Shown here one piece after another: positions 19,349 to 38,340 of a DNA stretch of 48,206 nt; position 1 is the stretch's first letter, and the number at the start of each line of letters is the position of its first letter. The DNA comes from an uncultured SAR116 cluster alpha proteobacterium. GTDB taxonomy: Bacteria > Pseudomonadota > Alphaproteobacteria > Puniceispirillales > Puniceispirillaceae. The position numbers and the translations under genes are program-made. The notes below the pieces were generated by a model. It was not told where the DNA came from. It worked only from the letters and a program-made list of their open reading frames with translations, and made no database searches. The DNA lies in contig CACHXC010000009.1 in the NCBI GenBank assembly GCA_902583715.1, positions 1 through 48,206 on the forward strand, in the 5' to 3' direction.

Positions 19349-20407
19349 TTAAGCAAAATATTGGAAAATTTCTTCGCTCAGCAGATCTATGTCATCACGC
19401 GTGATGTCTAAATGTGTTACCAGCCTGATTTGCCTGGCACCGCCGCCCAGCAAAATACCGCGTGCGGCAAGGTGTGCGCGCAAGCCATCAGCCGCACCAT
19501 CTGGCAGTGTGATGAACACCATGTTGGTCTCTACCAAATCTGGTTCCACATGAATGGCTTTGACCTGTGCCAAGCGTTCGGCGAGGCGTAATGCATTTGC
19601 GTGATCATCCGCAAGGCGGTTAATATGATGATCAAGCGCATGGATCCCAGCAGCAGCGACAATACCAATTTGACGCATGCCGCCGCCAACTAATTTGCGA
19701 ATACGATGCGCCCGCCTAATAAAATCTGTTGGCCCAACCAAGACAGACCCGGCTGGTGTTCCGAGCCCCTTGGACAAACATAAAGACACCGTATCAACAG
19801 CATCGACAATTTCGGCGGGAGGTATGCCAAGCTTGACAACCGCATTCATCAGCCGCGCCCCATCAAGATGCACAGCCAGCCCATATGCACGGCCGGCCGC
19901 CGCCATTTCGTCTATGTTTGCAACAGACTGGACCTGCCCAGCCACCGTATTTTCCAGACATAACAACCGTGACATGGCACAATGTGCATCATCAGGTTTG
20001 ACAGCCGCGGCGATATCATCTGCCAGCATTGCGCCCGACGTGGCTGTCGATATTGGTGCCATCATAACGCCGCCAAGCACCGCCGCACCACCAGCCTCAT
20101 CTCGAAAAATATGATATTTGTCACCAACCAGAATTTCATCACCACGCTGGCAATGCGCAAGTGTCGCACATAAATTTGATTGTGTGCCAGTAGCAACAAA
20201 CAACCCGGCTTCCTTGCCAAGTAATTTTGCCGCTTTATCTTGCAACGCATTGACTGTCGGGTCATCACCATAGACATCATCCCCAACTTCAGCCTCAACC
20301 ATCGCCTGCCGCATCGCCGCGGTTGGTTTTGTCACCGTATCACTGCGCAGATCCATCCGCACCGGCCTATTTGTTTTTGCAACACCCGCATACATCATGA
20401 TGTTCAC
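19349..20407 (-). CDS. ltaE: Low-specificity threonine aldolase (beta-eliminating lyase family)
   Basis: This PLP fold-type I enzyme splits threonine/allo-threonine to glycine and acetaldehyde. DLRSDTVTKPT is the characteristic start, VGDDVYGDDPTV follows, the cofactor aspartate is in HLDGARLMNA, and the PLP lysine is K213 in SLCLSKGLGTPAGS. The length of 352 is normal. A GTG at 20407 overlaps the stop of the upstream flavoprotein (GTGA); the ATG at 20398 is an alternative start. The overlap implies co-transcription with the reductase gene. L- versus allo-specificity cannot be read from sequence. Confidence 0.9.
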   Translation of the reverse strand: MNIMMYAGVAKTNRPVRMDLRSDTVTKPTAAMRQAMVEAEVGDDVYGDDPTVNALQDKAAKLLGKEAGLFVATGTQSNLCATLAHCQRGDEILVGDKYHIFRDEAGGAAVLGGVMMAPISTATSGAMLADDIAAAVKPDDAHCAMSRLLCLENTVAGQVQSVANIDEMAAAGRAYGLAVHLDGARLMNAVVKLGIPPAEIVDAVDTVSLCLSKGLGTPAGSVLVGPTDFIRRAHRIRKLVGGGMRQIGIVAAAGIHALDHHINRLADDHANALRLAERLAQVKAIHVEPDLVETNMVFITLPDGAADGLRAHLAARGILLGGGARQIRLVTHLDITRDDIDLLSEEIFQYFA

Positions 20408-21651
20408 ACCCCGTCTTGCTGCACACCAGATGCACCGGTTGCAAATGTTTTTAAATCAAAGGCTGAGTCAGCGGCATCTGACGGTGCCGGTGAAACATTA
20501 TTTTCAAGGCATTTTTTGCCAAGCATATAGGCCGCCGGGTCATGCACCGCCTCGACCGCTACCAATCGGTCCTGATCATAGCTCCAGACCGACATACCGC
20601 CTTCACGTTTTCCCAGACGTACCGCATAGCGCAGATCATCTTTGCCAACTGGGACAATACCTGCAGATTGCAGTCTCACGTCATATTGTTCTGACCAAAA
20701 CCACGGCACGGCCATATCCGGCATCGGCGTTTTAGTGATATCAGCGGCGGCGCGCGCCGCTGTGTCTTGGGCATTATGCACTGACTCAATGCGTAATACG
20801 GCCCCCTCTATCAGTGCCACATCACCAATCGCATAGACATCATCAATCGTGCTGCGCATCTGACGGTCAACAAGAATGCCATTGCCAATGGCCGCACCGG
20901 CGGCATCTGCCAACACGCTCTCAGGCGCAACGCCAATGCCGACCACCAGAAAATCGGCGCTGATTTGCTGGCCGGTATCCAATGTTATGCCAGTGAATAT
21001 GCCATCTTTATGGTCGATCTTCGTGCCGGTCATACCGGTATGTATTTTCACCCCGTGGCGTTGATGAAGACCCAGAAAAAAAGCAGATATGTCCGGGCTT
21101 GCCACACGCGCCAGCAATCGGTCCGCGGCTTCAACCACATGCACGTTTAGTCCAGCTTTACGAAAGCTGGCCGCGGCTTCAAGCCCAATATAGCCGCCAC
21201 CAATCACCACAGCCGTAGCGGCTGTTTGCATCGCCCGGCGCAATGCGGCGGCATCGTCCGGATTTCGCAACACATGTACATTGCCCAGACCCGCCGCTGG
21301 CGGCAATGTGCGCGGTATCGCCCCCGTGGCAAGGATGAGCTTATCATAATTTAGTGACTGGCCATCGGCCAACCCTATTTGGTGCGTCTCTGGTTCAATA
21401 CGATCAACAGCCACACCATCAATCATTGTCACCTGAAATCTGTCATACCATTCCGGGCGGCGTAGCAAAAATTTTTCATCTTTTTCTGGCGTGCTTCCAA
21501 GAAATGACTTTGACAAAGGCGGACGTTCAAGCGGCGCACCGACCTGCCTGTCGACCAGCGTAATCGCACCAGAAAATCCGAGATTGCGCAATTGTTCTGC
21601 GCATGAAATGCCGGCATGACTGGCGCCGATAATTACAATGTGCTGGGTCAT
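20404..21651 (-). CDS. FAD/NAD(P)-dependent ferredoxin (rubredoxin) reductase-type flavoprotein
   Basis: A 415-residue two-Rossmann flavoprotein of the putidaredoxin/rhodocoxin reductase type. The FAD motif is IVIIGASHAGISCAEQL, the NAD(P) motif VVIGGGYIGLEAAASF, and the second FAD block VYAIGDVALI. A reductase C-terminal domain follows with VPWFWSEQYDVRLQSAG. Such enzymes feed electrons to [2Fe-2S] ferredoxins of P450s or dioxygenases. No ferredoxin or oxygenase gene is adjacent, so its partner is unknown. Confidence 0.85.
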   Translation of the reverse strand: MTQHIVIIGASHAGISCAEQLRNLGFSGAITLVDRQVGAPLERPPLSKSFLGSTPEKDEKFLLRRPEWYDRFQVTMIDGVAVDRIEPETHQIGLADGQSLNYDKLILATGAIPRTLPPAAGLGNVHVLRNPDDAAALRRAMQTAATAVVIGGGYIGLEAAASFRKAGLNVHVVEAADRLLARVASPDISAFFLGLHQRHGVKIHTGMTGTKIDHKDGIFTGITLDTGQQISADFLVVGIGVAPESVLADAAGAAIGNGILVDRQMRSTIDDVYAIGDVALIEGAVLRIESVHNAQDTAARAAADITKTPMPDMAVPWFWSEQYDVRLQSAGIVPVGKDDLRYAVRLGKREGGMSVWSYDQDRLVAVEAVHDPAAYMLGKKCLENNVSPAPSDAADSAFDLKTFATGASGVQQDGV

Positions 21652-21864: not shown

Positions 21865-22626
21865 TCAGAGCTTGGCTGTAGGCCCTGTTGGCCCTACTCC
21901 TAACAGTCGCGGCAAGCCGGTTAAATCAGTGATTACATGTTCTGGCAAAATATCGTCGTATGGCCGGAATTCATAGGCATCAGCAACGCAAATAAACATC
22001 TTGCATCCAGCCGCTATCGCCGCCTCATAATCGGCAATGGTATCACCCACCATAATACTGGCTTCAGCTTTCACGCCGGCGACATCACAACAATGCAACA
22101 GCCCATCTGGATCTGGTTTTGACCCATAGCCGCTGTCTGCCCCGACAATGGTGCAGAATAATTCAGCAATACCAAGATCATGCAAACTCTGTCTGGCGCT
22201 GGCCTCGCTATCATTGGTCACCATCGCCAGTTGAAAGCCATCTTGATACAAGGCCTTGAGTGGGTTAACCACATCGCCTTTGGGTTTGGTCGACTGGCGG
22301 GTATGTTCATAAACGATATTTTTTACCTCGTTACGATAGGCCTGGTCATAGTCAAGCGCGATCATCTCTTGCGGCAACATGGCTTGCCATTTGGTGCGTA
22401 TCTGGGCGAATGAACCAGTCGCAAAAATCCCTTTTGGGTCAATATGGCCAACTGCATCGTCAACACCAATGGCACGCAATAAATCTGCTGTGGTGACCTG
22501 CGGGGTGGTACCGTTTGATGGGATTAAACTTGCGGTATATGCTGCCACCGCACGCGCAACTGGTAACCATGTTGCCTGTAGGTCAAGGATCACCCCATCT
22601 TTGTCAAAAATCACCAGCCGCGCCAT
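21865..22626 (-). CDS. HAD-superfamily phosphatase (Gph-like)
   Basis: HAD motif I is VIFDKDGVILD (nucleophile D8), motif II VTNDSEASAR, and the motif III/IV region KPDPDGLLHCC plus MVGDTIADYEAAIAAG. The helical cap between motifs I and II is of the phosphoglycolate-phosphatase/beta-phosphoglucomutase type. The ATG at 22626 is preferred over the preceding GTG (AAAGAG lies 9 bases upstream). It is the last gene of the minus-strand catabolic run, 12 bases after UPF0280. The substrate is unknown; it could be a flavin- or pathway-related phosphate ester. Confidence 0.8.
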   Translation of the reverse strand: MARLVIFDKDGVILDLQATWLPVARAVAAYTASLIPSNGTTPQVTTADLLRAIGVDDAVGHIDPKGIFATGSFAQIRTKWQAMLPQEMIALDYDQAYRNEVKNIVYEHTRQSTKPKGDVVNPLKALYQDGFQLAMVTNDSEASARQSLHDLGIAELFCTIVGADSGYGSKPDPDGLLHCCDVAGVKAEASIMVGDTIADYEAAIAAGCKMFICVADAYEFRPYDDILPEHVITDLTGLPRLLGVGPTGPTAKL

Positions 22627-22638
22627 CACGAATGCTCT

Positions 22639-23694
22639 TTACGGGTTTTCATCTGGAAGAACAGCCTGCACCGGCGGCTTGGTCGTCGTCCCGCCGCAGA
22701 TGAAACCTTGACCCTGCACAACCCCATAAGCAGCTGATATTTTACCGGACTGACGCATGTCTTCAGCAACACCAGCGCCGCGCCGCAGTGCATTTTTTAT
22801 AATTTGGTCTGGCAAGCGATCAACTTCAACCGTAACTAACCGCGCCCCCAAATCACTATCAGGTGCCGCTTCATTGGCCGGTTGGCGGTGCACACCGGGC
22901 CAATGCGATTTTGGGTCATCATCTGGCCATACCGCATTTGCGATCAGTGTCGCCGCCACATCAGCCGCCGCCGCCGTTGGTGCCAGCACCGTCACCAAAT
23001 CAGCTATCCCCAGAGACTGGCTCCGGCCTTTCCAGCCGCTTGTCGCAATGCCACCAACCTGATCAGCCACGCTGATCTTTATCGTACCGACAAAGGCGTT
23101 GGCCGCTAGCAGCATCCTGCCCTCATCTATTGATGCAACAGTATCAACATGCGCGTGGAACACCACATCCGGGTCAGCGCAGATGCCAATCGAATAGGAC
23201 GGCACCGCGGCACCTGCCGGGTTTAGATAAAGCGCGATATCTCCTCCATTATTGACGTAAATACGATCAACATCAGCAGCATCACGCATCACTGCCAAAA
23301 TTTCATCAGCCACCGCCCCAGCCACGGCTGCCATCGCCGTGATATAATTTTCGTCTCTATAGTTGTCGGCATGCGGAATGGTCGCCGCCCACATACGCGC
23401 GGCAACCCCGCCGGTTGGGGGGCGGCTAAGTTGATCAACGGGCCTGCGCAAAATCGCCAGTTCACTGACCAATTCTTCAAGCAATGTATCGAACCGGTCT
23501 TTGGCGGCAGAACAGGCCTGTTTCACTGCGTCCGACGCCCCATCCACACCAATCACGAGGTCAATCGGCCCATGATGCAAATGTAACCGCCCATCATCTA
23601 ACCATTGTGCGTGCGCCCCAGCAGGATGCCGCATGTTGTGGCCCACCGGGTCAATGGCTACCGGGGTATGGGCTACTGGGGCAGCGACCATCAT
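22639..23694 (-). CDS. UPF0280 family, ApbE-like; candidate flavin transferase
   Basis: The 351-residue protein shows UPF0280 landmarks: TAMAAVAGAVADEIL, YVNNGGDIALYL, and GGIATSGWKGRSQSLGIADL. UPF0280 is structurally related to ApbE, which attaches FMN to threonine of target proteins using FAD and Mg2+. The ATG at 23694 overlaps the hnr stop (ATGATG), so the two are translationally coupled. The 6-hydroxynicotinate reductase of Eubacterium barkeri has a covalently bound flavin, so a job in flavinylating Hnr is an attractive inference. No transferase activity has been shown for UPF0280 to my knowledge. Confidence 0.75.
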   Translation of the reverse strand: MMVAAPVAHTPVAIDPVGHNMRHPAGAHAQWLDDGRLHLHHGPIDLVIGVDGASDAVKQACSAAKDRFDTLLEELVSELAILRRPVDQLSRPPTGGVAARMWAATIPHADNYRDENYITAMAAVAGAVADEILAVMRDAADVDRIYVNNGGDIALYLNPAGAAVPSYSIGICADPDVVFHAHVDTVASIDEGRMLLAANAFVGTIKISVADQVGGIATSGWKGRSQSLGIADLVTVLAPTAAAADVAATLIANAVWPDDDPKSHWPGVHRQPANEAAPDSDLGARLVTVEVDRLPDQIIKNALRRGAGVAEDMRQSGKISAAYGVVQGQGFICGGTTTKPPVQAVLPDENP

Positions 23695-25190
23695 CCTTTG
23701 CCCGGCCACGTAATATCGGCGCGTTGCTGGATCGCTGTCATGCCCTGCAACCGATGATCGTTCTGCGGCCCAACCTGGCCTGCCAGCGCTTCTTCAATCG
23801 ACATCACGTGATCCATATGACCGCCGAGTGCCTGATAATCACTTTGCCGCATGGTAAATTCAATCGGTGCCACCAACGCCGGCGTCGGCACAAACCCAAA
23901 CGCATTGTCCGGCATTTGCATCACATCAGCCATGATGGTGATGCCACCACCCGGCCAAATATAGACCGGGGCACCGCCACAACTCACCCGTACCAACGCC
24001 TGCTTTACCGCGCGGGTCAACTGCACCGGGTTTTCCGTCACACCTGCCCGTAACGACCCCCCAGCGCCGCCCATAAACGCCACCGATGTCAGCGCTGGTT
24101 CACAATTTTCCTCAATGCGCGCAATAGACGGGCGAAGCCGGTCTGGCATGTCCATGGCAATGGGGTTTAGTGCCGCGTCAAGCTCGTAATAGGCAAATTG
24201 TTCACCAGTCGTCGACACCATCAACAATGACTGCCCGGGCTGTGCCACTTTGCTGTCAAACGGACCCAAAATATCCAGCGGGTCAGTCAGTTTGGTGCCG
24301 CCCCACCCTGTCCCCGGTTCCGCCACCTGGAAATAGCGCCCGGGCGTTGACCGCCGGCCTAGAATCTTGATGCCTGACGGTTTCCAGCCCAGCACTTTGC
24401 CAGCCTGATGTTCCGACATCACACCGGTGATATGATCATCAACAATCACCACTTCGTCGACCAGCCCCTGCCATTGTGCGGCAAACATACCAATGGTGGC
24501 CGATCCGCAGCCAACCCGCATACGGTCTTCGGTAACGCCATTGATGATAGGCGGCTCACCAGCCTGAATTAATAATTGAGACCCGTCATCCACCTGCATT
24601 TCAACGGCATCACCATTGCACAGGCTCAGCAAAGTGGCGCAGGTCACCCGGCCCTCTTTTTTGCCGCCGCCGGTCAGGTGATTCACCCCGCCAAGCGACA
24701 GCATTTGTGACCCATATTCGCCTGTTGTGACATGGCCAACAGCCTCACCATCAACACGCACCAAACTGCGTTCTGAACCAATGTGGCGGTCGGTATCAAT
24801 TTTCACCTTGGCGCCGCAATAGCTGAAGATTCCCTCGGTAACAACGGTCACCATGTCAAAGCCATCATGCTGGCTGGCAACAATAAAAGGGGCAGGCTTA
24901 TAATCTGGATAGGTGGTGCCGGCACCAATCGCCGTCACAAAATGATCGTTTGGCGTGACAATACTGCCGTCCCACGGTTTATCTTCCCCTACAAACGGCA
25001 CAAAAGTGCCGCCTTCATCAATCCGGCGTTGCATGATGACCAACGGGTCCAATCTAACCAACTGCCCGGCATCATTGGCATAACGGTCACAAGCGCCCGA
25101 TTTACCATCAGCGATGTAACACATCACCGGGCAGGCATCGCACCGGATTTTTTCATCAACCCGTTCATCACGGCTTTTGCGCTCAGTCAT
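23691..25190 (-). CDS. hnr: 6-hydroxynicotinate reductase-like Fe-S flavoprotein
   Basis: Hnr of Eubacterium barkeri reduces 6-hydroxynicotinate to 1,4,5,6-tetrahydro-6-oxonicotinate with reduced ferredoxin. This 499-residue protein has an N-terminal cluster motif CDACPVMCYIADGKSGACDR (C17, C20, C24, C34) and further cysteines at 125, 184, 191, 228, 363 and 404, ten in all. It is rich in glycine loops (LGGVNHLTGGGKK, FMGGAGGSLRAG, IWPGGGITI). It lies between a molybdenum hydroxylase (4-base overlap) and UPF0280, with an enamidase nearby. Assignment rests on resemblance to proteins annotated as Hnr plus this context; a related reductase acting on another hydroxylated N-ring is possible. Confidence 0.65.
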   Translation of the reverse strand: MTERKSRDERVDEKIRCDACPVMCYIADGKSGACDRYANDAGQLVRLDPLVIMQRRIDEGGTFVPFVGEDKPWDGSIVTPNDHFVTAIGAGTTYPDYKPAPFIVASQHDGFDMVTVVTEGIFSYCGAKVKIDTDRHIGSERSLVRVDGEAVGHVTTGEYGSQMLSLGGVNHLTGGGKKEGRVTCATLLSLCNGDAVEMQVDDGSQLLIQAGEPPIINGVTEDRMRVGCGSATIGMFAAQWQGLVDEVVIVDDHITGVMSEHQAGKVLGWKPSGIKILGRRSTPGRYFQVAEPGTGWGGTKLTDPLDILGPFDSKVAQPGQSLLMVSTTGEQFAYYELDAALNPIAMDMPDRLRPSIARIEENCEPALTSVAFMGGAGGSLRAGVTENPVQLTRAVKQALVRVSCGGAPVYIWPGGGITIMADVMQMPDNAFGFVPTPALVAPIEFTMRQSDYQALGGHMDHVMSIEEALAGQVGPQNDHRLQGMTAIQQRADITWPGKG

Positions 25191-27949
25191 GGTTTTGTCT
25201 CTTGTGCCTGCTGATGCAATGCCGCGCGAATTTTATCGGCAGTAGCCGGAAGATGCGTGATCAGCACACCGGTTGCCTGACGAATAGCATTCACAATGGC
25301 TGGCGCGGTTGGGATCAATACATGTTCGCCCAGTCCCTTGGCCCCATAGGGCCCCTCTGCATCTGCTACCTCAACGATGACATGTTCAAACAACGGCACA
25401 TCACCAATTGTCGGGATGAGATAATCATGTAAATTTTCGGTACGGCCGGGCAAATAATCTTCCATCAAGGCCAGACCAATGCCTTGGGCAGCCCCGCCTT
25501 CAATCTGGCCCTCGACAAGCAACGGGTTAATTGCCCGTCCCACATCATGCGCTGTTGTCATCTTCTCAAGACGCACATGACCTAGCCCGATATCCACCAT
25601 CAATTCGGTCATTTGCGCACCATAGCCATAAACAGCATACGGGGCGCCCTGACCATTTTCATCAAGCGGTGTGGTTGGTGGGTCATAGGTTTCCTCTGCC
25701 ATAAATACATAGCCATGCGCATTCACTGGCAAGGACGACAAATCAATGCTGGCGGTGCCACCAGCCGCATTGTCAACAAGGCGTACCTCTGCCCCATCAA
25801 TTACGATGCTGGCATCATCCGAGACATTGCCGTGGCGCAAAATCACCTCACGCAAAGCGCGGCCAGCCAGCAATGCGGCTTTTCCGGACACGAATGTCTG
25901 GCGTGATGCGGATGTCTTGCCGCAATCTGGTGTCCGATCAGTGTCGCAATCGATCAGCGATAGGCTATGGACCGGCACCCCTAATGCATCAGCGGCAATT
26001 TGCGAAATAACCGTATTGGCGCCTTGCCCGATATCCATTGCCCCTTGGTGCAGAACACAAGCGCCGTCAGCCGTCACACCGATCCGCATGGTTGACGGGT
26101 TTGGCAGAGAAGTATTGCCACACCCATACCAGCAACTGGCCACGCCAATGCCCTTGCGCAACATTGATCCGGTCTTGGTGGCGTCTTTGTTAAACCTGTC
26201 AGCGCGCCCCAATGCCGCATCCCATTCTGGTTGCAACGCCGCTAAACAATCGGCAATGCCAACACCTGTCGGAAAACACTGGCCGGTGACCGTCGGCATA
26301 TGATTTTGCAATGCATTCATCCGCCGAAATGCCAGCCGGTCCATGTCTAGCTTTTCTGCCAATAGATCATAGGCGCATTCTTGCGCAACCGCTGATTGCG
26401 GCACGCCGAATCCACGAAACGCCCCAGCTGGCGGCGCATTGGTATGCACAGCAACACTCGATGCCCGGTAATCTGGCGTTACATAAGGCCCACTGGCATG
26501 TACTGGCACCCGGTTTGCCACAGTTGGCCCCCAACTGGCATAAGCGCCAGTGTTAAACACGCCATCAAAGACAAAGCCACTGATCCGCCCCTCAGCATCA
26601 CAGCCCACCTCCAGCCGGATATCTGATGGATGACGTTTGGTCGAGGATCGCATCGACTCACCGCGCGTGTAACAAATCGCCACCGGACGGTGCAACACCC
26701 ACGCCGCCAATGCGACAAAAGGTTGAAATGAAATATCAAGCTTTGATCCAAAACCACCGCCACATGCGCTTGGCATCACGCGAATGGCATCAACCTCCAG
26801 CGCCATAATTTCGGCAAGGCTATCACGGTCCATTTGCGCGGCCTGCGTACAGCCATAGATCACCAGCCTGTTACCCTCACGCACCGCGTAACCAGCCTCA
26901 GGTTCAATATAAGCATGCTCAATAAAGGGGGTGCTTGAATGCACGCTGACCCGGTGCGTCGCCCGCGCCAGCGCCGCATCAGCATCTCCGCGGGCCACAT
27001 AGCCTTTGACCAAAATATTACCGTCACGCCCCGCATGCAACTGCCGGGCCTCTGGCTTACGCGCTTCTTGCGGCGTTAACATCGTCTCATGCGGTTGCCA
27101 ACTAACCGGAAATTCAGCCTCATCGAACCCCTCAATCACGGCTGGCTCACCAACAATAGCAGCCACAGCCTCGCCCCGATACAACGCGGTCCTCTCGGCA
27201 AAAACAGGTTGATCAGCAAACGGCGGGATCACACCAAAACAATTGCGGCCCGGCACATCCGTTGCATCAAACACTGCCACAATGCCCGGGCGATCTGCCA
27301 AAAACGCCGATTTATCGCCAATTTCGAAATCAGCATAATGATGTGGACTGCGAATAACCCGCAATGACAACGCATCATCAGGCACACTATCTGCACCATA
27401 GTTAAGCCCGGCCTGCACCTTGGCGACGCCGTCAAGATGCTGAATCGAACTGCCCACATTGTGGCCAGCATCTGGTTTGATAGATGGCGGTTGGCGTGCG
27501 TGCGCCTGCATCACCGCATCAATAATTTTGCTGTAGCCGGTACAACGACACAACACCCCGCCAAGCGCATCTTCTACCTCGGTGCGGTTTGGTTGGGGGT
27601 TGGTCTTTAACAAATGCGCTGCAGACACCAGCATGCCGGGCGTACAAATTCCACATTGCGCCGCCCCATGCACTAAAAAACTCTGCTGTAATTTTTCGAT
27701 AACAGCTGACTCATGCAACCCTTCAACACTGGTGACTGATTGCCCGTCAACCTGCCCCAGCGCGACCAAACAACTGCAGACCGGCTCATCATCAAGCAAA
27801 ATGGTGCAGGCCCCACAATCACCAGCGTTACAACCAACCTTGGTACCGGTCAGGCCAAAATCACCGCGTAATATATCGCTCATCCGTGTTGTCGGGCGTG
27901 CCGTACTGGTCACAGGTTTTCCATTTAGCAAAAAGCCTATGCCCGCCAT
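25187..27949 (-). CDS. Molybdenum hydroxylase, fused [2Fe-2S] and Mo-cofactor subunits (nicotinate dehydrogenase-like)
   Basis: This xanthine-oxidase-family protein hydroxylates an N-heterocycle or aldehyde with water. The first ~150 residues are a two-cluster small subunit: C40, C45, C48, C60 (CNAGDCGACTILLDD) and C99, C102, C134, C136 (CGIC and CRC). The rest is the molybdopterin subunit with GGGFGSKLDIS, PPAGAFRGFGVPQ, GQGANTVISQIAAD and the catalytic glutamate in GAKGLGEHVLIP. At 920 residues both parts are full size, so this is a true fusion. Its ATG overlaps the FAD-subunit stop by 1 base (TAATG). Context suggests nicotinate as substrate; the residues do not prove it. Confidence 0.88.
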   Translation of the reverse strand: MAGIGFLLNGKPVTSTARPTTRMSDILRGDFGLTGTKVGCNAGDCGACTILLDDEPVCSCLVALGQVDGQSVTSVEGLHESAVIEKLQQSFLVHGAAQCGICTPGMLVSAAHLLKTNPQPNRTEVEDALGGVLCRCTGYSKIIDAVMQAHARQPPSIKPDAGHNVGSSIQHLDGVAKVQAGLNYGADSVPDDALSLRVIRSPHHYADFEIGDKSAFLADRPGIVAVFDATDVPGRNCFGVIPPFADQPVFAERTALYRGEAVAAIVGEPAVIEGFDEAEFPVSWQPHETMLTPQEARKPEARQLHAGRDGNILVKGYVARGDADAALARATHRVSVHSSTPFIEHAYIEPEAGYAVREGNRLVIYGCTQAAQMDRDSLAEIMALEVDAIRVMPSACGGGFGSKLDISFQPFVALAAWVLHRPVAICYTRGESMRSSTKRHPSDIRLEVGCDAEGRISGFVFDGVFNTGAYASWGPTVANRVPVHASGPYVTPDYRASSVAVHTNAPPAGAFRGFGVPQSAVAQECAYDLLAEKLDMDRLAFRRMNALQNHMPTVTGQCFPTGVGIADCLAALQPEWDAALGRADRFNKDATKTGSMLRKGIGVASCWYGCGNTSLPNPSTMRIGVTADGACVLHQGAMDIGQGANTVISQIAADALGVPVHSLSLIDCDTDRTPDCGKTSASRQTFVSGKAALLAGRALREVILRHGNVSDDASIVIDGAEVRLVDNAAGGTASIDLSSLPVNAHGYVFMAEETYDPPTTPLDENGQGAPYAVYGYGAQMTELMVDIGLGHVRLEKMTTAHDVGRAINPLLVEGQIEGGAAQGIGLALMEDYLPGRTENLHDYLIPTIGDVPLFEHVIVEVADAEGPYGAKGLGEHVLIPTAPAIVNAIRQATGVLITHLPATADKIRAALHQQAQETKP

Positions 27950-28827
27950 TAGTTCACCTGCCCCATGTCTGACCCAGCTGTTATCAAAAGTCGCCGCACG
28001 GCTTCTTCAACCGCCTCAATGCGATAGCTTGCCGGGGCGCGCACATCATCAATCGGGGACAAGCTGGCAAAATACGCCGCCGACACCAAATCGGCCGCGC
28101 CCAACAGTGGTTGGCCGCACAAGTGCCGTTCCAGATCAGCAAGCCGCGTTGCCACTTCTGAACAGGCTCCAACAGCAATCGCTATTTCGGCAATTGTCTG
28201 CTCGGTGTCGCACAACAGCCGCATCGCCACCATACCAATCGAAATGACCAAATAGCGGCGGGCCCCAAATTTATAGAAATATCCCTGTCCAACAGTCGCG
28301 GGGCTTGGCACCAGAATAGCGGTAACAATTTCGTCCTCAGCGCAGACGGTTTTGCGATTGCCAGTGATGAATGACGCCAGTGGTACCACCCGGCGCCCCC
28401 GGCAGGATTGAATCTCTACCGCAGCATCCATGGTCAACAGGGCCGGCACCCCATCTGCAGCCGGTGACGCATTACAGATATTACCAACCAGCGTTGCCCG
28501 GTTTTGGATTTGCCAAGACCCAACCTCGCCAGCCGCTATTTTCAATCCATCAAACGCCGGCGGAAGGTCAGCCCGTATCACATCGCGCCAACTCACCGCC
28601 GCGCCAATCGACCAATATTCATCGCTTTGCTTGATCACGCGCAAATCGGCAATGCCGGAAATATCAAGCACACGGCCAATAAGCGGCCGGTCCTGCAATG
28701 CGGGATACACATCTGTGCCGCCAGCCAAAATCCGGCACGGGCCGGCCGCTAGCATGGATAGGGCGGCGTCAAGCGCTGACGCTCTTAGATAAACATCATC
28801 ACCATCTGCGGCTGATACAGCTTGCAT
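27949..28827 (-). CDS. FAD-binding subunit of the molybdenum hydroxylase
   Basis: A 292-residue CoxM/PCMH-type protein that passes electrons from the [2Fe-2S] clusters to an acceptor. FAD-binding loops are ILAGGTDVYPALQDRP and ATLVGNICNASPAADGVPAL; the C-terminal CO-dehydrogenase flavoprotein fold has GARRYLVISIGMVAMRL. It precedes and overlaps the fused large subunit, giving a two-gene enzyme. A palindromic operator-like site lies 54 bases upstream, so this gene can begin its own transcript apart from the aldehyde oxidoreductase gene. Confidence 0.88.
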   Translation of the reverse strand: MQAVSAADGDDVYLRASALDAALSMLAAGPCRILAGGTDVYPALQDRPLIGRVLDISGIADLRVIKQSDEYWSIGAAVSWRDVIRADLPPAFDGLKIAAGEVGSWQIQNRATLVGNICNASPAADGVPALLTMDAAVEIQSCRGRRVVPLASFITGNRKTVCAEDEIVTAILVPSPATVGQGYFYKFGARRYLVISIGMVAMRLLCDTEQTIAEIAIAVGACSEVATRLADLERHLCGQPLLGAADLVSAAYFASLSPIDDVRAPASYRIEAVEEAVRRLLITAGSDMGQVN

Positions 28828-28880
28828 TAACCCTCCTACATACGCTCATAAAACACCCCGCAACCAGTTGCCAGATCGCG

Positions 28881-28904
28881 TTTATTTGTTTGTACACAAA
28901 TAAA
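28881..28904 (-). promoter_or_regulatory. Operator-like palindrome before the molybdenum hydroxylase genes
   Basis: TTTATTTGT (28881-28889) and ACAAATAAA (28896-28904) are perfect 9-base arms around TTGTAC. The core TTTGTTTGTACACAAATAAA agrees at 15 of 20 positions with the palindrome before the aldehyde oxidoreductase gene. It sits in the 133-base gap after that gene. No clear -35/-10 pair was found beside it. Confidence 0.6.
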
Positions 28905-28960
28905 GAAGACCGCAAATCACCATGCACGTCAAGCCCTATGGGCAAGACATGCACGGCGCA

Positions 28961-30685
28961 TTATTGCATGGTTGCACTCGCCAAAAGGGCCTGCATTTGC
29001 TGGTTCACTTCCTGACTAAATAACCGGTTGGTCTTGCCAGTTGGTGGCAACGGCTCATCAGTGAAAAACGCTGGTAATTCATCATCATCGTCATCAAAGC
29101 CGGCGGCTTTGTTAAAGGCAGCCTCTAGCCGCAAGGTTTCAAGCGCGATATGGCGAATAAATTCTGGGTCAACACCCGCATCAAAGGCATCATTTATGGC
29201 ATCGGCAATCAGTTGCAGATTATCGTCCGTCACTGAACGGCCAAACACACATAAACCGAATGAGTCAGCGACTGCACTATTGATCTGCATGCGCAGGCTT
29301 TCCGCCACAAGTTCGGCAATCGATTTATCATCACATTTGAACGAGGGCGCATTCCCAACGGTGTGATCGGCACCTTGCGCCGTTAGCATCATGGAAATAC
29401 CAGTGACTTCAACGACCCGAGGGTCATAGGCGCTAATCGCCTGTTTCTTGATAACCGGCACCCGTGCCACTTTCAGGGCCGCACCAACCCGCGCCGTGCC
29501 CGACGCATAAAGCCGGCCTTTTTCACTGCCCGCGCGGATTTCTTCGAGACAGGCGTGCATAAAGGGCAGATCACCAAACGCCCCCTCACCAGCCTCCATC
29601 AACACCGCAATAGTGGCACCAAGCTCAATACTGTCAACGCCCAGATCATTCGCTGTTTCATTGAGACGCGCCACGTCATCCGGTTCCGTTAGCCCGCAAT
29701 TAGTTCCCAGCAAGCCGATGGTTTCATATTCAAGCGGCGACACCAATTCGCGCCCGCTATCATCAACAAAGACATTACTGCATTTGATAAGACATCCCGG
29801 CATACAAGCATGTGACGTTTCACCACCGCGCCCGCTATTAAGTTCGCGGATAAAATCGCCACCCATCTTCAGCGGACCATCATCCGCACCGGTTAATTGA
29901 CCAGATGAAAAATTACGCACCGGCAAGGCCCCAAGGTGATTGGTCAAATCTGCAACCATTGCCGTACCCGTTGTTTTCAGACTTTGAACCGCAACTGACT
30001 CACCCAATTTTTTGCCGTAATCCTTAATCGCACCCATGACTTTTTTGCGATCATGCACCGGCGGCATGCGGTCTTTGTCGATCACCACCGCTTTTATTTT
30101 TTTGGCGCCCATCACGGCCCCAACACCACCGCGCGCCGCCAATCGTGACGGCCTGTTGTCAGTATCAGAGAACGCCACGCCCGCCATTAAACCAAGATAT
30201 TCACCAACCGGGCCACAAAGGGCCAACGAGGTTTTTTCACCATAAGCGGCATGTAGTTTCTGTGCGCAATCAAAATTACCAAGTCCTAAATAAGGGCTGG
30301 CATCATCAAATGAAATATCACCATCCTTGGTAATGCGGATCACCACCCACGCGTCACTGGCACCATTAAAGGTGATGCCAGCAATCTGCAATTGCCCCAT
30401 GGCAAAGCCAAATGTACCACCGCTATTGGCCTCTTTAACACCGCCGGTAAGTGGGCTTTTACAGCCGACAGACAAACGGTTCGCATTAGAAAAATTTGTG
30501 CCGGCAAATGGCCCAACTGAAAATATCAAGGGATTTTCCGGTGCCAGCGGGTCAATAGCGGCGACATCACGTTCAACCAGCATCCGCGCGATCAGATACC
30601 GCCCGGCCTCGGCCAATTCACGGCCGGCAAGCTGGCGTTCCAACACATGCTGGCGGTGCAAATCTATTTCAATAAATTTCCTCAT
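28961..30685 (-). CDS. Aldehyde:ferredoxin oxidoreductase (tungsten/AOR family)
   Basis: AOR enzymes oxidise aldehydes to acids at a tungsto-bispterin centre and reduce ferredoxin. The [4Fe-4S] ligands are seen as C294, C298 and C302 (CMPGCLIKCSN) with C479 (SFGLCVFGR), and the N-terminal pterin-binding half has GPFAGTNFSNANRLSVGCKSP and RGGVGAVMGAKKIKAVV. The ATG at 30685 follows AAGGGG; the frame runs 8 codons further upstream. The 574-residue length is slightly short of the typical ~600. It lies between enamidase and the molybdenum hydroxylase, with its own promoter-operator. AORs are best known from anaerobes; the substrate here is inferred to be the ring-opened aldehyde. Confidence 0.85.
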   Translation of the reverse strand: MRKFIEIDLHRQHVLERQLAGRELAEAGRYLIARMLVERDVAAIDPLAPENPLIFSVGPFAGTNFSNANRLSVGCKSPLTGGVKEANSGGTFGFAMGQLQIAGITFNGASDAWVVIRITKDGDISFDDASPYLGLGNFDCAQKLHAAYGEKTSLALCGPVGEYLGLMAGVAFSDTDNRPSRLAARGGVGAVMGAKKIKAVVIDKDRMPPVHDRKKVMGAIKDYGKKLGESVAVQSLKTTGTAMVADLTNHLGALPVRNFSSGQLTGADDGPLKMGGDFIRELNSGRGGETSHACMPGCLIKCSNVFVDDSGRELVSPLEYETIGLLGTNCGLTEPDDVARLNETANDLGVDSIELGATIAVLMEAGEGAFGDLPFMHACLEEIRAGSEKGRLYASGTARVGAALKVARVPVIKKQAISAYDPRVVEVTGISMMLTAQGADHTVGNAPSFKCDDKSIAELVAESLRMQINSAVADSFGLCVFGRSVTDDNLQLIADAINDAFDAGVDPEFIRHIALETLRLEAAFNKAAGFDDDDDELPAFFTDEPLPPTGKTNRLFSQEVNQQMQALLASATMQ

Positions 30686-30721
30686 AGTCAGCCCCTTTTG
30701 GCTAAACATACATAGATGAAT

Positions 30722-30756
30722 ATTGTTTGTATACTAACAATTAACATATTTGTAAA
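30722..30756 (-). promoter_or_regulatory. Promoter with overlapping palindromic operator, AOR gene
   Basis: On the minus strand TTTACA (30751-30756) and TATACA (30728-30733) are spaced by 17 bases. A 20-base near-perfect palindrome, ATTGTTTGTATACTAACAAT (30722-30741), has one mismatched pair and covers the whole -10 element, as expected for repression. Similar sites precede three other units in this cluster. Confidence 0.7.
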
Positions 30757-30809
30757 TCAGCTTTTGCCTTGGCCACATTTACCCAGCAAGTGCAAACGGG
30801 CCGCCTTTT

Positions 30810-31979
30810 TTACAGCACCACTTCTGGCAAGCGTTCAGCGGGCGGTGTATTACGGCTACGCTGGGTGCGGACAATGCCGTCAATGATGGTCATCCCGACA
30901 CCCGGCAGGTTACCTTGATGAATACTCTCAAGCATGGTTTTGCCTGGCGCATGCTGAGCGCTGTCGATTAAGATGTAATCTGCCGACTTGCCAATTTCAA
31001 TGATACCGCTGTCAAGCTCGCGCATTCTGGCGGTGTTACCAGTGGCAAAGCAAAAAGCAATCTCTGGCGGAATATCGCCAAGGCTAGACAGCATCGCAAT
31101 CATCCGCAAAATGCCAAGCGGTTGCACGCCTGATCCTGCTGGTGCATCAGTGCCTAAAATAATACGCTCTGCTTGGCCGATTTCAAAAGCTGTGCGCATG
31201 GCAAGTAAACCAGCTCGTTCATTGCCATTGTGAACAATTTCGATACCGCGCGTACAGCTTTCGCACAGGCATGTGATCTGGTCATCAGGCAACGCCGTAT
31301 GACCGCCATTAATATGGCCAATGATATCTGCATCCGCCTCTAGCACGACGTCTTTATCGATCAACCCTGATCCCGGAATCGATGGGCCGCCGGTATGGAT
31401 GGTCGACTGAATGCCATATTTACGCGCCCATTTCACCATTTGGGCGGCGGTTTCTCCGGCTTTTACCGAACCCAAACCAACTTCACCTAGCAATTTAACA
31501 CCCGCATCTGCCAGCTCTTTGAAATCGGACTCGACCATTCCCTCTTCAATTACCGGAGCGCCAGCAAGCATTTTCACACCAGATGGCCGGAAATTTTCAT
31601 ACCAACGTTGCGAAGCAATCGCCATGGCTTTTAACCCAACAATATCCTTGGGCCGGCCGGGCGCATGCACCTCACCAGCTGAAATCATTGTTGTCACACC
31701 GCCATGGAGGCATGAATCAATCCAGTTTAATTGCTGTTGGCGCGGCGTATAATCGCCAATCACCGGATGGACATGGCTGTCAATCAACCCCGGCGCCAGC
31801 GTTACGCCATGTGCATCAACAATCTGCGTCGCTTGGTCGGTATCAAGGTCAGCATAACGGCCAATGGCTGCGATCCTCCCATCAATGGCAATCACACAAT
31901 CACCATCAATCAGCGGCTCTTCCAGCTTGCCAGACAAAATCTGACCGATATTCTTTATTACAAGCTTTTGTACAGACAT
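30810..31979 (-). CDS. ena: Enamidase (amidohydrolase superfamily)
   Basis: Enamidase hydrolyses 1,4,5,6-tetrahydro-6-oxonicotinate to 2-formylglutarate and ammonia. The metal-binding HxH is H69/H71 in IDSHVHPVIGDYTPRQ; other likely ligands are E166 (LLGEVGLGS), H195, H222 (GHINGGH) and D278 (LGTDAPAGSG). Blocks such as LHGGVTTMISAG, PGRPKD and the tail SRNTPPAE agree closely with the E. barkeri enamidase as I recall it. The ATG at 31979 follows AAAAGGGG, giving 389 residues; an upstream extension to 32051 would run through the promoter. It precedes the AOR gene. Family is certain; orthology with enamidase is likely. Confidence 0.8.
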   Translation of the reverse strand: MSVQKLVIKNIGQILSGKLEEPLIDGDCVIAIDGRIAAIGRYADLDTDQATQIVDAHGVTLAPGLIDSHVHPVIGDYTPRQQQLNWIDSCLHGGVTTMISAGEVHAPGRPKDIVGLKAMAIASQRWYENFRPSGVKMLAGAPVIEEGMVESDFKELADAGVKLLGEVGLGSVKAGETAAQMVKWARKYGIQSTIHTGGPSIPGSGLIDKDVVLEADADIIGHINGGHTALPDDQITCLCESCTRGIEIVHNGNERAGLLAMRTAFEIGQAERIILGTDAPAGSGVQPLGILRMIAMLSSLGDIPPEIAFCFATGNTARMRELDSGIIEIGKSADYILIDSAQHAPGKTMLESIHQGNLPGVGMTIIDGIVRTQRSRNTPPAERLPEVVL

Positions 31980-32036
31980 GATTTGCCCCTTTTTACTGCT
32001 GATGCCGCGGGCCATAGCCCAATGAAACCCGGCTAT

Positions 32037-32070
32037 TTCATTAGTATGCAAACATTTATTTCTTGTGCAA
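32037..32070 (-). promoter_or_regulatory. Promoter with operator half-conserved, enamidase gene
   Basis: On the minus strand TTGCAC (32065-32070) and CATACT (32043-32048) are spaced by 16 bases. TTAGTATGCAAACATT (32041-32056) matches 14 of 16 positions of the reverse of the AOR-gene palindrome, and it covers the -10. Its outer left arm is degenerate. Expected start of transcription fits the ATG at 31979. Confidence 0.55.
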
Positions 32071-32083
32071 GGCGATTTAAAAT

Positions 32084-32494
32084 CTACATCTTATCAAGTA
32101 ATTCGAGCAACCGTTTAACATCACGACCAGTTAAGTTAGCCACCGTATCTTTGGTGATTTTGCACGCTTTTTCGATTGCATCAATCGTCAGGCTGCGGCC
32201 CGCATCGGTTAGTGAAATCTGTAAACGCCGCAGATCATTTGGATCGGCACGGGCCTCGACAAGATCTTTTTCTAACAGCCGCGCAATCACCCCTTTGGTG
32301 GTAGCAGCATCCATCGCAACCAGCCGGCCAAGCTGATTTTGAGAGGTTTCGCCAACCTCATAGAGACGCGCCAAAATTGAAAATTGAGTGGGCGTCACAT
32401 CTGAAAGATGCCGCGAAAAAATTTCCAGATGACGCTGCGTCGCAAGACGCAATTTATACCCTACCTGATCATCAAGTCTGTAATCATTAGGCAT
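32084..32494 (-). CDS. MarR-family transcriptional regulator
   Basis: A 136-residue winged-helix protein with the MarR layout: VTPTQFSILARLYEVGETSQNQLG (helices before the reader), the recognition helix MDAATTKGVIARLLEKDL and the wing ARADPNDLRRLQISLTDAG. Starting at the ATG at 32494 (AAGGG upstream) removes nine untypical residues. It is transcribed divergently from the DUF1185 gene and precedes enamidase on the same strand. Its operator region contains two palindromes. It is the obvious candidate to control the cluster, with a pathway aromatic as ligand; that is inference. Confidence 0.88.
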   Translation of the reverse strand: MPNDYRLDDQVGYKLRLATQRHLEIFSRHLSDVTPTQFSILARLYEVGETSQNQLGRLVAMDAATTKGVIARLLEKDLVEARADPNDLRRLQISLTDAGRSLTIDAIEKACKITKDTVANLTGRDVKRLLELLDKM

Positions 32495-32528
32495 GGATTT
32501 ACCCTTTATATGACCCATCAATGCAGCA

Positions 32529-32578
32529 AATAATCAAGCTGATTATTGTTTGACAGCGAACAAATTTTATTCTTGAAT
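32529..32578. promoter_or_regulatory. Divergent control region between marR and DUF1185
   Basis: Two palindromes lie side by side. AATAATCA-AGC-TGATTATT (32529-32547) is a perfect 8-base inverted repeat. ATTGTT-N8-AACAAA (32545-32564) has the same arm sequence and spacing as the palindrome before the AOR gene. A plus-strand promoter TTGACA (32550-32555), 17-base spacer, TTGAAT (32573-32578) overlaps the second one, in front of the DUF1185 gene. This fits autoregulation plus control of the divergent gene. Confidence 0.6.
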
Positions 32579-32630
32579 TTAGCGTCAATTTTTTGCACAC
32601 GTCAAACCCCTTTGATCACGAGGCCCGCGC

Positions 32631-33218
32631 ATGACCACCGCAAAAATTCGCAAAATTGTTACAATTATTGAAGAAACCCACAGCGAAGCCGATCAACCCA
32701 TTGATCCGGCCACACGCCGTGCTGCGGCGGTTGCCGTTATCGAAAATCCTTTTGCTGGCCACTACGTAGAGGATTTAGAAACCTTGATGGTGATTGGTGA
32801 AGAGCTCGGCGCACAATTAGGTGAGGCATGCGTTACCGCGCTGGGCATCTCTCCTGCCGACGCCCAAAGCTATGGCAAGGCTGCCCTTGTTGGTGAAAAT
32901 GGCGAATTGGAGCATGCCGCGGCGATTTTACATCCACGGCTTGGCAAGCCTCTACGCGCGGCTGTTGAAAAAGGCGCGGCGCTGGTTCCATCAAATAAAA
33001 AACGCGGCGGCATGGGGACCCCGCTTGACGTGCCGCTTGGTCATAAGGATGCCGCCTATGTCAGATCACATTTTGACGGCATGGAAGTGCGGGTGAATGA
33101 CGCGCCGCGTGCAAATGAAATTCTAGTGGTCGTAGCGGTTGCCGATTCTGGGCGCCCGTTACCCCGTGTTGGCGGATTGACGCATGACGAGGCTGAAGGC
33201 AAAGACGGCCTGCGTTAG
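32631..33218 (+). CDS. DUF1185 (PF06684, 'amino acid synthesis') family protein
   Basis: A 195-residue soluble protein with the family blocks RRAAAVAVIENPFAGHYVEDL, EAAAIL-like HAAAILHPRLGKPLRAAVEKG and LDVPLGHKDAAYVRSHFDGM. Structures of this family have been described as a variant of the chorismate-mutase fold with a suggested role in amino-acid metabolism; no reaction is established. It faces the MarR gene across shared palindromes, so it probably belongs to the nicotinate-type cluster, perhaps in a downstream or isomerising step. Its stop overlaps by 4 bases the stop of the convergent DMT gene. Confidence 0.8.
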   Translation: MTTAKIRKIVTIIEETHSEADQPIDPATRRAAAVAVIENPFAGHYVEDLETLMVIGEELGAQLGEACVTALGISPADAQSYGKAALVGENGELEHAAAILHPRLGKPLRAAVEKGAALVPSNKKRGGMGTPLDVPLGHKDAAYVRSHFDGMEVRVNDAPRANEILVVVAVADSGRPLPRVGGLTHDEAEGKDGLR

Positions 33219-35044: not shown

Positions 35045-35689
35045 TCAATCGCTGACAATAGACCCACGCTCAATAACATACGTCCGATCGATTACATCTG
35101 CCACGTGTGCATCGTTTGACTCGGCAATTATAATAGACACGCCCTCTGCTTTAAGTGACGCCAATATTTCGCCCATTCTTAGAGCAAGCACCGGCGCAAT
35201 GCCCTCTGTGGGCTCGTCGAGTAACAATAAATTTTTTCCAACCATAAGAGCACGTGCCAAGGCTACCAGTTTTTGCTGACCTCCTGAAAGAGAAGTTGCT
35301 GGTGTTTCACGAAATTTTTGACATTCTGGTATTATCTTATAGATCCATTGTAACCGCGACTGAAAGTCCTCAATGCCAGTGGACCAAACTGGCACCAGAA
35401 TATTTTGCTCAGCAGTCATTTCTGGCACAAGTCGCCTATCTTCCGGCATGTAACCAAAGCCCATGTGTGCACGTTTGTATCCCGGAAGCTTGTTGATCTC
35501 GTCACGGCCATGTAGGACACTTCCAGCATTGACAGGAATCAGTCCCATCACTGATCGAAGGAATGTAGTTTTTCCGGCACCGTTGCGCCCGATCAATCCG
35601 ATGATCTCGCCATTGTCGATAGTCAATCCAATATCACGTAAAATTGGTGTCCCATTGATATCAACGTCTAGTGATTTTACTACCAGCAT
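35045..35689 (-). CDS. livF: ABC importer ATPase, LivF type
   Basis: One of two ATPases of a branched-chain-amino-acid-type importer. Walker A is GLIGRNGAGKTTF, the signature LSGGQQKLVALARAL, and Walker B NLLLLDEPTEGIAP. At 214 residues it is about 20 shorter than common LivF proteins but all motifs are present. It lies 9 bases after livG. Symbol reflects family and order, not proven leucine transport. Confidence 0.88.
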   Translation of the reverse strand: MLVVKSLDVDINGTPILRDIGLTIDNGEIIGLIGRNGAGKTTFLRSVMGLIPVNAGSVLHGRDEINKLPGYKRAHMGFGYMPEDRRLVPEMTAEQNILVPVWSTGIEDFQSRLQWIYKIIPECQKFRETPATSLSGGQQKLVALARALMVGKNLLLLDEPTEGIAPVLALRMGEILASLKAEGVSIIIAESNDAHVADVIDRTYVIERGSIVSD

Positions 35690-35698
35690 TTTCAGGCC

Positions 35699-36472
35699 CT
35701 ATTTCTTTCTCTTGTGATGCTCTTTTCCAATCACAAATTCTTGGACTTTTTTATCGGACAACGCCTTTTTTGGTGGCATATCAGCAATGATTTCACCCTG
35801 ATAAAAAGCTAAAACACGACTAACGTAGCGGGCAACGATTTCCATATCGTGCTCAACGAAGAGAACCGTTACACCGTCTTCTTTGAGAGCGTCCATCACT
35901 ATATCCATGAAGTCGAATTTTTCTTCAACGCTGATGCCACTAGTAGGCTCGTCAAGCAGAAGAATTCTCGGCCTACTGACCACCGCCATAGCTATGTCTA
36001 GAAGCTTTCTGACACCCTGAGCCAAGGCGCTCACAGTCGAGTCACGATGCGCCTCTAACTTATACCTCGCAAGAACGGCATCAAGCTGCTGCCTTAACTC
36101 AGGGGTGTCCATAAGCCGCAAAGCGTCAAACGCTGTGTTGTTTGCGATGGCAATAGATATCATCAAATTCTCCGCCACCGTCATAGAATGGAAAACTTGT
36201 GAAACCTGAAAAGAACGGGAAATGCCAGAATGGGTAATTTTTCTCGTTTCGAGGCCGACCAGTTCCTTACCTTCAAATTTTATGCTGCCTTCTGTGGGGG
36301 CAAGATAGCCAGTCACCATATTAACAAAACAGGTTTTACCGGCACCATTCGCACCAATGATGCCAACAACCTCACCTCTCGAAATGTCAACATTGATATC
36401 TTTAGCAGCAACAACGGCGCCAAAAGTTTTGAGAAGGTCGCGAACCTCGAGAATTGGTGCGTTATTTCCCAT
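35699..36472 (-). CDS. livG: ABC importer ATPase, LivG type
   Basis: Walker A is GIIGANGAGKTCFVNMVTGY; the linker signature region reads ALAQGVRKLLDIAMAVV, an unusual form of the LSxGQ motif; Walker B is ILLLDEPTSGISVEEK. The first ATG at 36514 lies deep inside livM, so the ATG at 36472, preceded by GGAGG, is preferred (257 residues, 11-base overlap with livM). It partners LivF in powering the LivHM channel. Confidence 0.88.
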   Translation of the reverse strand: MGNNAPILEVRDLLKTFGAVVAAKDINVDISRGEVVGIIGANGAGKTCFVNMVTGYLAPTEGSIKFEGKELVGLETRKITHSGISRSFQVSQVFHSMTVAENLMISIAIANNTAFDALRLMDTPELRQQLDAVLARYKLEAHRDSTVSALAQGVRKLLDIAMAVVSRPRILLLDEPTSGISVEEKFDFMDIVMDALKEDGVTVLFVEHDMEIVARYVSRVLAFYQGEIIADMPPKKALSDKKVQEFVIGKEHHKRKK

Positions 36473-37403: not shown

Positions 37404-37405
37404 AT

Positions 37406-38302: not shown

Positions 38303-38340
38303 AGTTTGCCCCCGATAAATTTAGATTAATATAATTAGGT

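Follow-up and report, generated by a model that had tools for sequence, protein, structure and literature searches.

An aldehyde oxidoreductase tied to a nicotinate-type reductive pathway in SAR116 and some other marine Proteobacteria

Introduction

How does a bacterium that lives in oxygen supply the low-potential electrons that reductive dearomatization consumes? We know of no answer for aerobes. The question is raised by a gene cluster from an uncultured SAR116 alphaproteobacterium. The stretch of DNA analyzed here (the window; 48,206 nucleotides of contig CACHXC010000009.1) is contig C9 of a 60%-complete genome, and its minus strand carries, from position 32521 downward, genes for a MarR regulator, an enamidase, an aldehyde (ferredoxin) oxidoreductase (AOR), a two-gene molybdenum (Mo) hydroxylase, a putative Hnr-type 6-hydroxynicotinate reductase, a UPF0280 protein, and a HAD-family hydrolase. 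The original prediction, made from the letters alone, read this cluster as a nicotinate-type reductive pathway ending in glutarate, in which AOR returns the electrons spent on ring reduction. Our analysis upholds the pathway, the tie to AOR, and glutarate, but not AOR as a general rule. Instead, AOR is a lineage-specific option whose tie to the pathway rests on co-occurrence, on linkage, and, among the closest relatives, on an operator-like site common to these genes. If an AOR acting on the product were controlled together with the ring reductase, the electron supply of aerobes would have a simple answer.

An aerobic reductive route to glutarate is already known; the AOR is the new part. In PMC3511419, Azorhizobium is credited with an aerobic reductive nicotinate route through THON to glutarate, so the aerobic run to glutarate that was predicted for the window is supported but not novel. 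In a Bradyrhizobiaceae strain described in that source, Hnr lies in a cluster that encodes the initial three enzymes of the route together with an ABC importer and two conserved proteins of unknown function. As in the window, Hnr, enamidase, and importer share one region and glutaryl-CoA dehydrogenase (GcdH) is available; unlike in the window, no AOR is mentioned, the passages on the route name no enzyme for oxidation of the aldehyde, and the word aldehyde occurs zero times in the main text of PMC3511419. Our guess is that the two unknown proteins are probably UPF0280 and AA_synth. Among the matches listed in our literature searches, which included few subscription papers, no paper places an AOR in a nicotinate pathway.

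The nicotinate fermentation of Eubacterium barkeri shares the Mo hydroxylase, a probable Hnr, and enamidase with the window, but its Mo subunits are divided differently. Genes for the later steps of the fermentation, noted as missing in the original prediction, are indeed absent from the 38 window proteins scanned with Pfam (about ten further open reading frames, and every one shorter than 90 aa, lay outside the scan). In E. barkeri, the aldehyde is reportedly reduced to hydroxymethylglutarate, followed by a B12 rearrangement.

Results and discussion

Co-occurrence and linkage of AOR with the pathway

The window AOR (28961-30709, minus strand) matches AFOR_N and AFOR_C and, among structures, 1aor (E=2.8e-51). 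To count its relatives, we defined a clade at ≥60% identity, tallied AORs of ≤33% identity apart as distant, and counted the split AOR of genome G065 once; enamidase matches of 36-42% identity were likewise set apart as paralogues. Hnr is found in 69 of 385 genomes of the class, of which one, a 34-residue fragment (G182), was dropped to leave 68. A clade AOR occurs in 16 of the 385, and 15 of these 16 are Hnr-positive, compared with 53 of the 369 other genomes (p=1.8e-11, a generous value, like the other AOR/Hnr p values here, because related species are not independent). Enamidase is present in 11 of the 16. The distant AORs, found in 17 genomes, show no bias toward Hnr (5/17; p=0.20). Within the Hnr genomes, the clade AOR goes with enamidase, occurring in 11 of the 30 that have it versus 4 of the 38 that do not (p=0.017).

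The same association is seen at the level of loci. Hnr loci were found in named genomes in 204 cases, of which the best 80 were taken; altogether, 147 loci were read, with genes called by a codon-usage gene caller, and 146 are distinct (L079 lies on the same contig as L099 and was dropped). In 96 loci, the sequence extends for 8 kb or more to either side of Hnr; of these, 9 of 29 that contain enamidase also contain AOR, compared with 0 of 67 that lack enamidase (p=7.7e-6). Some genes fall beyond the limits of the Hnr locus that was read or on a separate contig (enamidase in G287, G210, G378, and G300; AOR in G287 and G001), so the locus counts are lower bounds and the genome table is preferred.

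The linked arrangements vary between lineages. The order is enamidase-AOR-Mo-Hnr in SAR116, enamidase-AOR in G194 and G287, AOR-AA_synth-enamidase in G001, AOR-Hnr in two Rhizobiaceae-like metagenome-assembled genomes (MAGs; L110 and L112), and GcdH-AOR-Mo in Granulosicoccaceae. This recurrence bears on whether the AOR is a bystander that entered the cluster by chance, as could be argued from nine genomes that have a clade AOR with no Hnr or enamidase in the stretch read. We consider that very improbable, given that the linkage recurs in varying gene orders across SAR116, Rhizobiaceae-like MAGs, Granulosicoccaceae, and two further genera, and that three of these lineages have the shared site.

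A shared operator-like palindrome

The window contains four copies of the palindrome TTNGTATACNAA with at most one mismatch. Three of these copies precede pathway genes: at 28889-28900 (one mismatch) upstream of the Mo hydroxylase and Hnr genes, at 30726-30737 (perfect) upstream of AOR, and at 32041-32052 (one mismatch) upstream of enamidase. Because the pattern was first spotted by eye in this sequence and refined afterward with the help of relatives, the window count (0.85 expected; four reached in 1 of 100 shuffles) does not amount to an independent test. Across 37 enamidase or AOR loci, we find 57 sites versus 11.4 in mononucleotide shuffles, near the Mo hydroxylase gene MoM 14 times, enamidase 10, AOR 8, and Hnr 8, a site between two genes being counted for both.

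The position of the site before AOR is the more telling feature. A perfect site lies approximately 50-90 nt before AOR in 10 of the 13 genomes that have a close (≥69%) AOR and whose upstream region was read, namely the window and nine relatives (G303, G381, G001, L103, L105, L106, L108, L110, and L112). These ten comprise seven SAR116 genomes, G001, and the two Rhizobiaceae-like MAGs, and the background is 25 of 1629 sequence windows. In the SAR116 loci L080, L103, L105, L106, and L108, the AOR site is the only one found, and it is the window and G303 that show sites at the Mo and enamidase genes. Over whole genomes, G303 has a single perfect copy, which precedes AOR; G381 and G000 have two each, one of them before AOR; and G001 has four, of which one precedes AOR, one precedes enamidase, one is on the Hnr contig, and one lies elsewhere. 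A reversed control pattern is about as rare, with 4, 6, 1, and 2 copies; the evidence therefore lies in the location of the palindrome and not in its number.

A regulator that could read these sites is encoded beside them. The MarR gene (32084-32521, minus strand), unnamed in the original prediction, is counted here as a member of the unit. Its pocket residues are Tyr, Tyr, Arg, and His, compared with Tyr, His, Arg, and His for the 6-hydroxynicotinate contacts of BpsR, so that three of the four contacts are kept. We infer that this MarR binds the palindrome.

AOR is an option rather than a rule

Several observations weigh against a firm bond between AOR and the pathway. The clade AOR is missing from 19 of the 30 genomes with Hnr and enamidase (one of them, G163, has a distant AOR), and it is therefore dispensable. 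Conversely, it is present in four Hnr genomes without enamidase (G079, G184, G187, and G313) and in G359, which has no Hnr. Of 12 clade AORs at ≤65% identity, 10 are unlinked to Hnr or enamidase in the stretch read. A perfect site precedes none of these 12, nor any of 12 distant AORs, nor the one from Thermus. Besides the nine genomes mentioned above, G065 is a tenth in which linkage is not seen, its AOR being divided between the ends of contigs. No site lies directly before AOR in the Granulosicoccaceae loci L120 and L122 or in L123. Finally, an AOR from Thermus thermophilus plasmid pTT27 (L258:9022-10734) is 53% identical and has no pathway around it. The unlinked, siteless members of the clade and this Thermus relative indicate that the basic role of the clade may be general.

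The predicted genome co-occurrence stands as an enrichment, but AOR is missing from most Hnr genomes, an outcome that the original prediction had named as a refutation. AOR as a universal part of the pathway was rejected, since the clade AOR is present in only 15 of 68 Hnr genomes.

We also considered a dedicated aldehyde dehydrogenase next door as a substitute for AOR, and none was found in eight of the 19 AOR-less Hnr and enamidase genomes. Each of these eight has 8-16 aldehyde dehydrogenase genes (PF00171, E≤1e-80); among the matches listed, none comes closer to Hnr or enamidase than 19 kb (in G335), and the others are farther or on other contigs. A motif scan of 146 loci with PROSITE-type patterns, which had no positive control, likewise detected no aldehyde dehydrogenase.

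As a separate observation, the pTT27 AOR adjoins type III-B CRISPR genes, with no Hnr or enamidase annotated nearby.

The window AOR has the features of an aldehyde-oxidizing enzyme

A set of second-shell residues, Thr, Glu, Tyr, and His (243, 313, 427, and 448 in Pyrococcus furiosus), characterizes aldehyde-oxidizing AORs in the sections of PMC12096430 on the family. The window AOR keeps all four, as T249, E329, Y428, and H449, and an alignment of 33 AORs (22 from the clade, including Thermus, and 11 distant) has them without exception. The cluster cysteines C302, C306, C310, and C487 are equally invariant. Cluster cysteines and second-shell residues are shared with the tungsten AORs of P. 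furiosus (1aor) and Aromatoleum aromaticum (AORAa); the cysteine spacing is CX3CX3C in the window AOR versus CX2CX3C in 1aor.

These residues speak to a different role for the protein, as a ring reductase of the BamB (benzoyl-CoA reductase) or YdhV kind that acts in ring reduction itself. BamB belongs to the same Pfam family and appears among the weaker PDB matches (4z3w, E=4e-13). Yet the best three PDB matches are aldehyde oxidoreductases (E 1.5e-47 to 2.8e-51), BamB and YdhV lack the four residues according to the same sections of PMC12096430, and Hnr is present for the ring. We regard a ring-reducing AOR as extremely improbable.

Because no protein resembling the partner subunits AorA and AorC (as defined in the relevant part of PMC6365974) was seen among the window proteins scanned, the window AOR is presumably of the single-subunit, ferredoxin type. 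The organism is a presumed aerobe, whereas the portion of a 2025 review that covers AOR producers (PMC12096430) names one among aerobes. The tungstate importer tupABC is reported from all SAR116 subclades except IIb.I in the corresponding section of PMC12262181. Were the pathway proposed here correct, these importers would have one use, and AOR would have a defined job in ocean bacteria that live with oxygen, from which hardly any such enzymes are known.

The proposed pathway and its substrate

Every gene named in the original prediction lies where it had been placed. The enamidase (30810-31979, minus strand) matches E. barkeri 2vun with 363 bits over 384 residues (residues 28-411; E=1.8e-107) and keeps His, Glu, and Asp motifs that we take to be the metal ligands of 2vun. 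Its open reading frame opens at 32051, 72 nt earlier than the probable start at 31979, which we prefer because relatives of ≥68% identity align from residues 21-29 (except G303, from residue 9) and because the operator-like site covers 32041-32052.

Sequence searches of Pfam, NCBIfam, and the PDB give no match for the Hnr-like protein (23691-25190, minus strand), and no PDB fold matches its predicted model (pLDDT 78) at E≤0.001. Relatives of 62-72% identity occur in 26 of 72,556 plasmid records, where 17 are annotated as 6-hydroxynicotinate reductase, 3 as hypothetical, and 6 have no annotation. Identity to the window protein is 94% for a protein of an uncultured proteobacterium and 79-90% for those in Candidatus Puniceispirillum/SAR116 records. 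For comparison, the Hnr proteins of E. barkeri and of the nicotinate-growing Bradyrhizobiaceae strain SG-6C share 42% identity in the comparison given in PMC3511419. Taken together, the assignment of the locus to a nicotinate-type reductive pathway is supported.

On balance, we favor, with some reserve, a pathway that breaks down a nicotinate-like pyridine carboxylate reductively in an aerobe and that some marine Proteobacteria have extended by recruiting AOR. The proposal draws on protein families, catalytic residues, linkage, shared operator-like sites, and GcdH in the AOR gene run of two relatives, all read from sequence; the substrates we infer. The Mo hydroxylase, made up of a large subunit with [2Fe-2S] and Mo-binding parts (25187-27949) and an FAD subunit (27949-28827; both minus strand and identified by family matches as putatively nicotinate-type), would make the 6-hydroxypyridine. 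Hnr would then reduce the ring with two electrons, and enamidase would open it hydrolytically to an aldehyde, which would be 2-formylglutarate if the substrate is nicotinate. AOR would oxidize this aldehyde, or glutarate semialdehyde after decarboxylation, to an acid leading to glutarate, which GcdH would take on after activation. The MarR protein, as a repressor sensing the hydroxylated ring, would control the enamidase, AOR, and Mo/Hnr genes through the shared palindrome.

The substrate might instead be another pyridine carboxylate, such as trigonelline or homarine, and not free nicotinate. Rieske oxygenase genes, a representative of which matches VanA_C (O-/N-demethylase type), occur in 6 of the 13 loci with AOR and in 49 of the 146 Hnr loci, and a bacterial homarine pathway has been published (Nat Microbiol 2026, as cited in a passage of PMC13390433). 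The SAR116 loci, however, lack a Rieske gene, and a 6-hydroxynicotinate-like ring is what both enamidase and MarR pocket suggest, one pocket residue (Tyr for His) counting against this. A C2 carboxylate would be expected to open to a keto acid, leaving AOR jobless, and demethylated trigonelline would still pass through nicotinate. A substrate other than free nicotinate therefore seems to us unlikely, and homarine as a certain substrate was not adopted, being kept as a rival only.

Glutarate as the likely end product

The notion of glutarate as end product gains support from Granulosicoccaceae. In the MAGs L120 and L122, GcdH lies upstream of AOR on the same strand in one gene run, GcdH-AOR-MoM(-MoL). 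The L122 protein matches 4w9u with 613 bits and 3gnc with 568, and the L120 gene clusters with it. One-mismatch sites precede GcdH, the first gene of the run, or a GcdH remnant in L120, L122, and L123. GcdH further occurs in the neighborhood of Hnr in two loci, L074 and L095, each time adjoining a CoA-transferase gene (that of L095 matches family III), and 13 kb away in G300. All 14 genomes tested contain GcdH, including that of the window, whose copy (G000:C5:83006-84193) is 87% identical to a G381 protein that matches GcdH structures. Because GcdH sits in the AOR run of L120 and L122 and is present in 14 of 14 genomes, glutarate is the likely product. The glutaryl-CoA genes that the original prediction would seek nearby thus adjoin AOR in these two MAGs but are unlinked in SAR116, which tells against the assignment there; in the SAR116 genome G381, GcdH has unrelated neighbors and no operator-like site in an 18-kb stretch. 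In Azorhizobium, decarboxylation reportedly comes first.

In L123, a short open reading frame (L123:9172-9585) occupies the place of GcdH upstream of AOR and, by eye, looks like an internally deleted GcdH copy.

Electron supply

Ring reduction by Hnr costs two electrons at the level of ferredoxin. AOR gives back two for each aldehyde, and the potential of the aldehyde/acid couple is sufficiently low to drive Hnr reduction. Closure on ferredoxin fits this stoichiometry, and the two low-potential electrons from each aldehyde would travel from AOR to Hnr by ferredoxin. The ferredoxin looked for near the locus is not there in the Fer4 form, which counts against such a loop: a six-frame search finds no Fer4 ferredoxin on the window contig and nine Fer4 matches elsewhere in the genome. 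The search for Fer2-type ferredoxins was confined to the window proteins scanned.

In a competing explanation, AOR is only an aldehyde scavenger whose electrons enter the general ferredoxin/NAD pool, and Hnr is fed by an NAD(P)H:ferredoxin reductase. A ferredoxin-NADP reductase gene (c13) is indeed present in 17 of 146 Hnr loci, 12 of them of the hydantoinase type described below, and has operator-like sites near it. It stands directly before Hnr in four of the five loci viewed (L116, L135, L138, and L260, a Pseudosulfitobacter plasmid; not L128). The window has a Rieske-type ferredoxin reductase of its own (20404-21651), and 53 of 68 Hnr genomes live without a clade AOR. Against this stands the mutual exclusion of c13 and AOR (c13 is absent from all 13 loci with AOR, and AOR from all 17 with c13, numbers too small to weigh heavily). 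It is as if the two were alternative electron suppliers, one per kind of locus, although most enamidase-type loci have neither. We judge the scavenger role rather unlikely.

A further prediction concerns the flavin of Hnr. The UPF0280 gene (22639-23709, minus strand; NF003322, 313 bits, cutoff 290) accompanies Hnr in 143 of 147 loci by tblastn. For its model (pLDDT 84), PDB ranks 1-2 are two chains of 2o34, and ranks 3-41 are all ApbE, FmnB, or Ftp. Only ranks 3-5 of these reach E≤0.001. The TM-scores are 0.26-0.40 of the query, and since these are low, the likeness to flavin transferases is distant. E. barkeri Hnr is said to have a covalent flavin. UPF0280 is thus a good candidate for an ApbE-like transferase that would attach it; in the literature searched, no paper links UPF0280/DUF375 with a flavin transferase or with 6-hydroxynicotinate.

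We propose tentatively, as a possibility somewhat short of likely, that some marine aerobes run a closed ferredoxin loop, in which two electrons are spent at Hnr and two are returned by a tungsten-type AOR, and UPF0280 loads the covalent flavin of Hnr. If so, ring reduction would be independent of photosystems, of bifurcation, and of any energy-driven reduction of ferredoxin.

Enamidase-type and hydantoinase-type Hnr loci

Among the 146 distinct Hnr loci, 35 contain enamidase, 55 contain at least one of a pair of hydantoinase A/B-like genes, and none contains both; the remaining 56 have neither within the stretch. Ring opening thus seems to take two forms, a lactamase-like pair versus the hydrolytic enamidase. 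The NCBIfam best match of the hydantoinase A/B-like genes is caprolactamase alpha, below cutoff (for example, L156:4107-6194). Such loci occur in many Rhodobacterales, among others, and 24 of the 55 also have a VanA-type Rieske oxygenase; they apparently represent a second ring-opening route, perhaps for N-methylated pyridines.

Like the window, the hydantoinase-type loci have Hnr, UPF0280, the Mo hydroxylase, AA_synth, and the same operator-like site, but hydantoinase A/B-like genes replace enamidase. In 54 of them, we count 73 sites versus 10.0 in shuffles, near MoM 36 times, Hnr 34, and the ferredoxin reductase 19. At the last position of the MarR pocket, 17 of 21 enamidase-type regulators have His and 26 of 35 hydantoinase-type ones have Asn, which suggests two different inducers. 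None of the 46 hydantoinase-type loci with 8 kb on both sides of Hnr contains AOR, and in the Hnr loci read, AOR occurs only with enamidase or in cut-off loci (L107 and L122); an unlinked AOR is present in at least two genomes with hydantoinase-type loci (G079 and G187). Hnr, the enamidase or hydantoinase type, and AOR could serve as markers for nicotinate-like compounds in sea water.

Neighboring genes in the window

On the opposite strand from the cluster lies an AA_synth family gene (PF06684; 32631-33218, plus strand), a frequent partner found with Hnr in 116 of 147 loci and often as two tandem copies in relatives. A branched-chain-type ABC importer (two ATPases, two permeases, and a binding protein; 35045-39673, minus strand) is a candidate uptake system. 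The HAD-family hydrolase at the other end (21865-22629, minus strand; HAD_2, 6e-26) is part of a SAR116 gene run and occurs in 11 of 146 Hnr loci, all from the SAR116 group.

Beyond the HAD gene are the Rieske-type ferredoxin reductase, a GntG aldolase, and a GcvT protein resembling dimethylsulfoniopropionate (DMSP) demethylase (18143-19279; 378 bits, cutoff 410), the last in a conserved SAR116 gene run with Hnr. Beside the GcvT-like gene, at 17723-18094, is a 123-aa piece of a Na/H exchanger, for which the relatives L080 and L099 have a gene of 386-402 aa; the window copy looks truncated.

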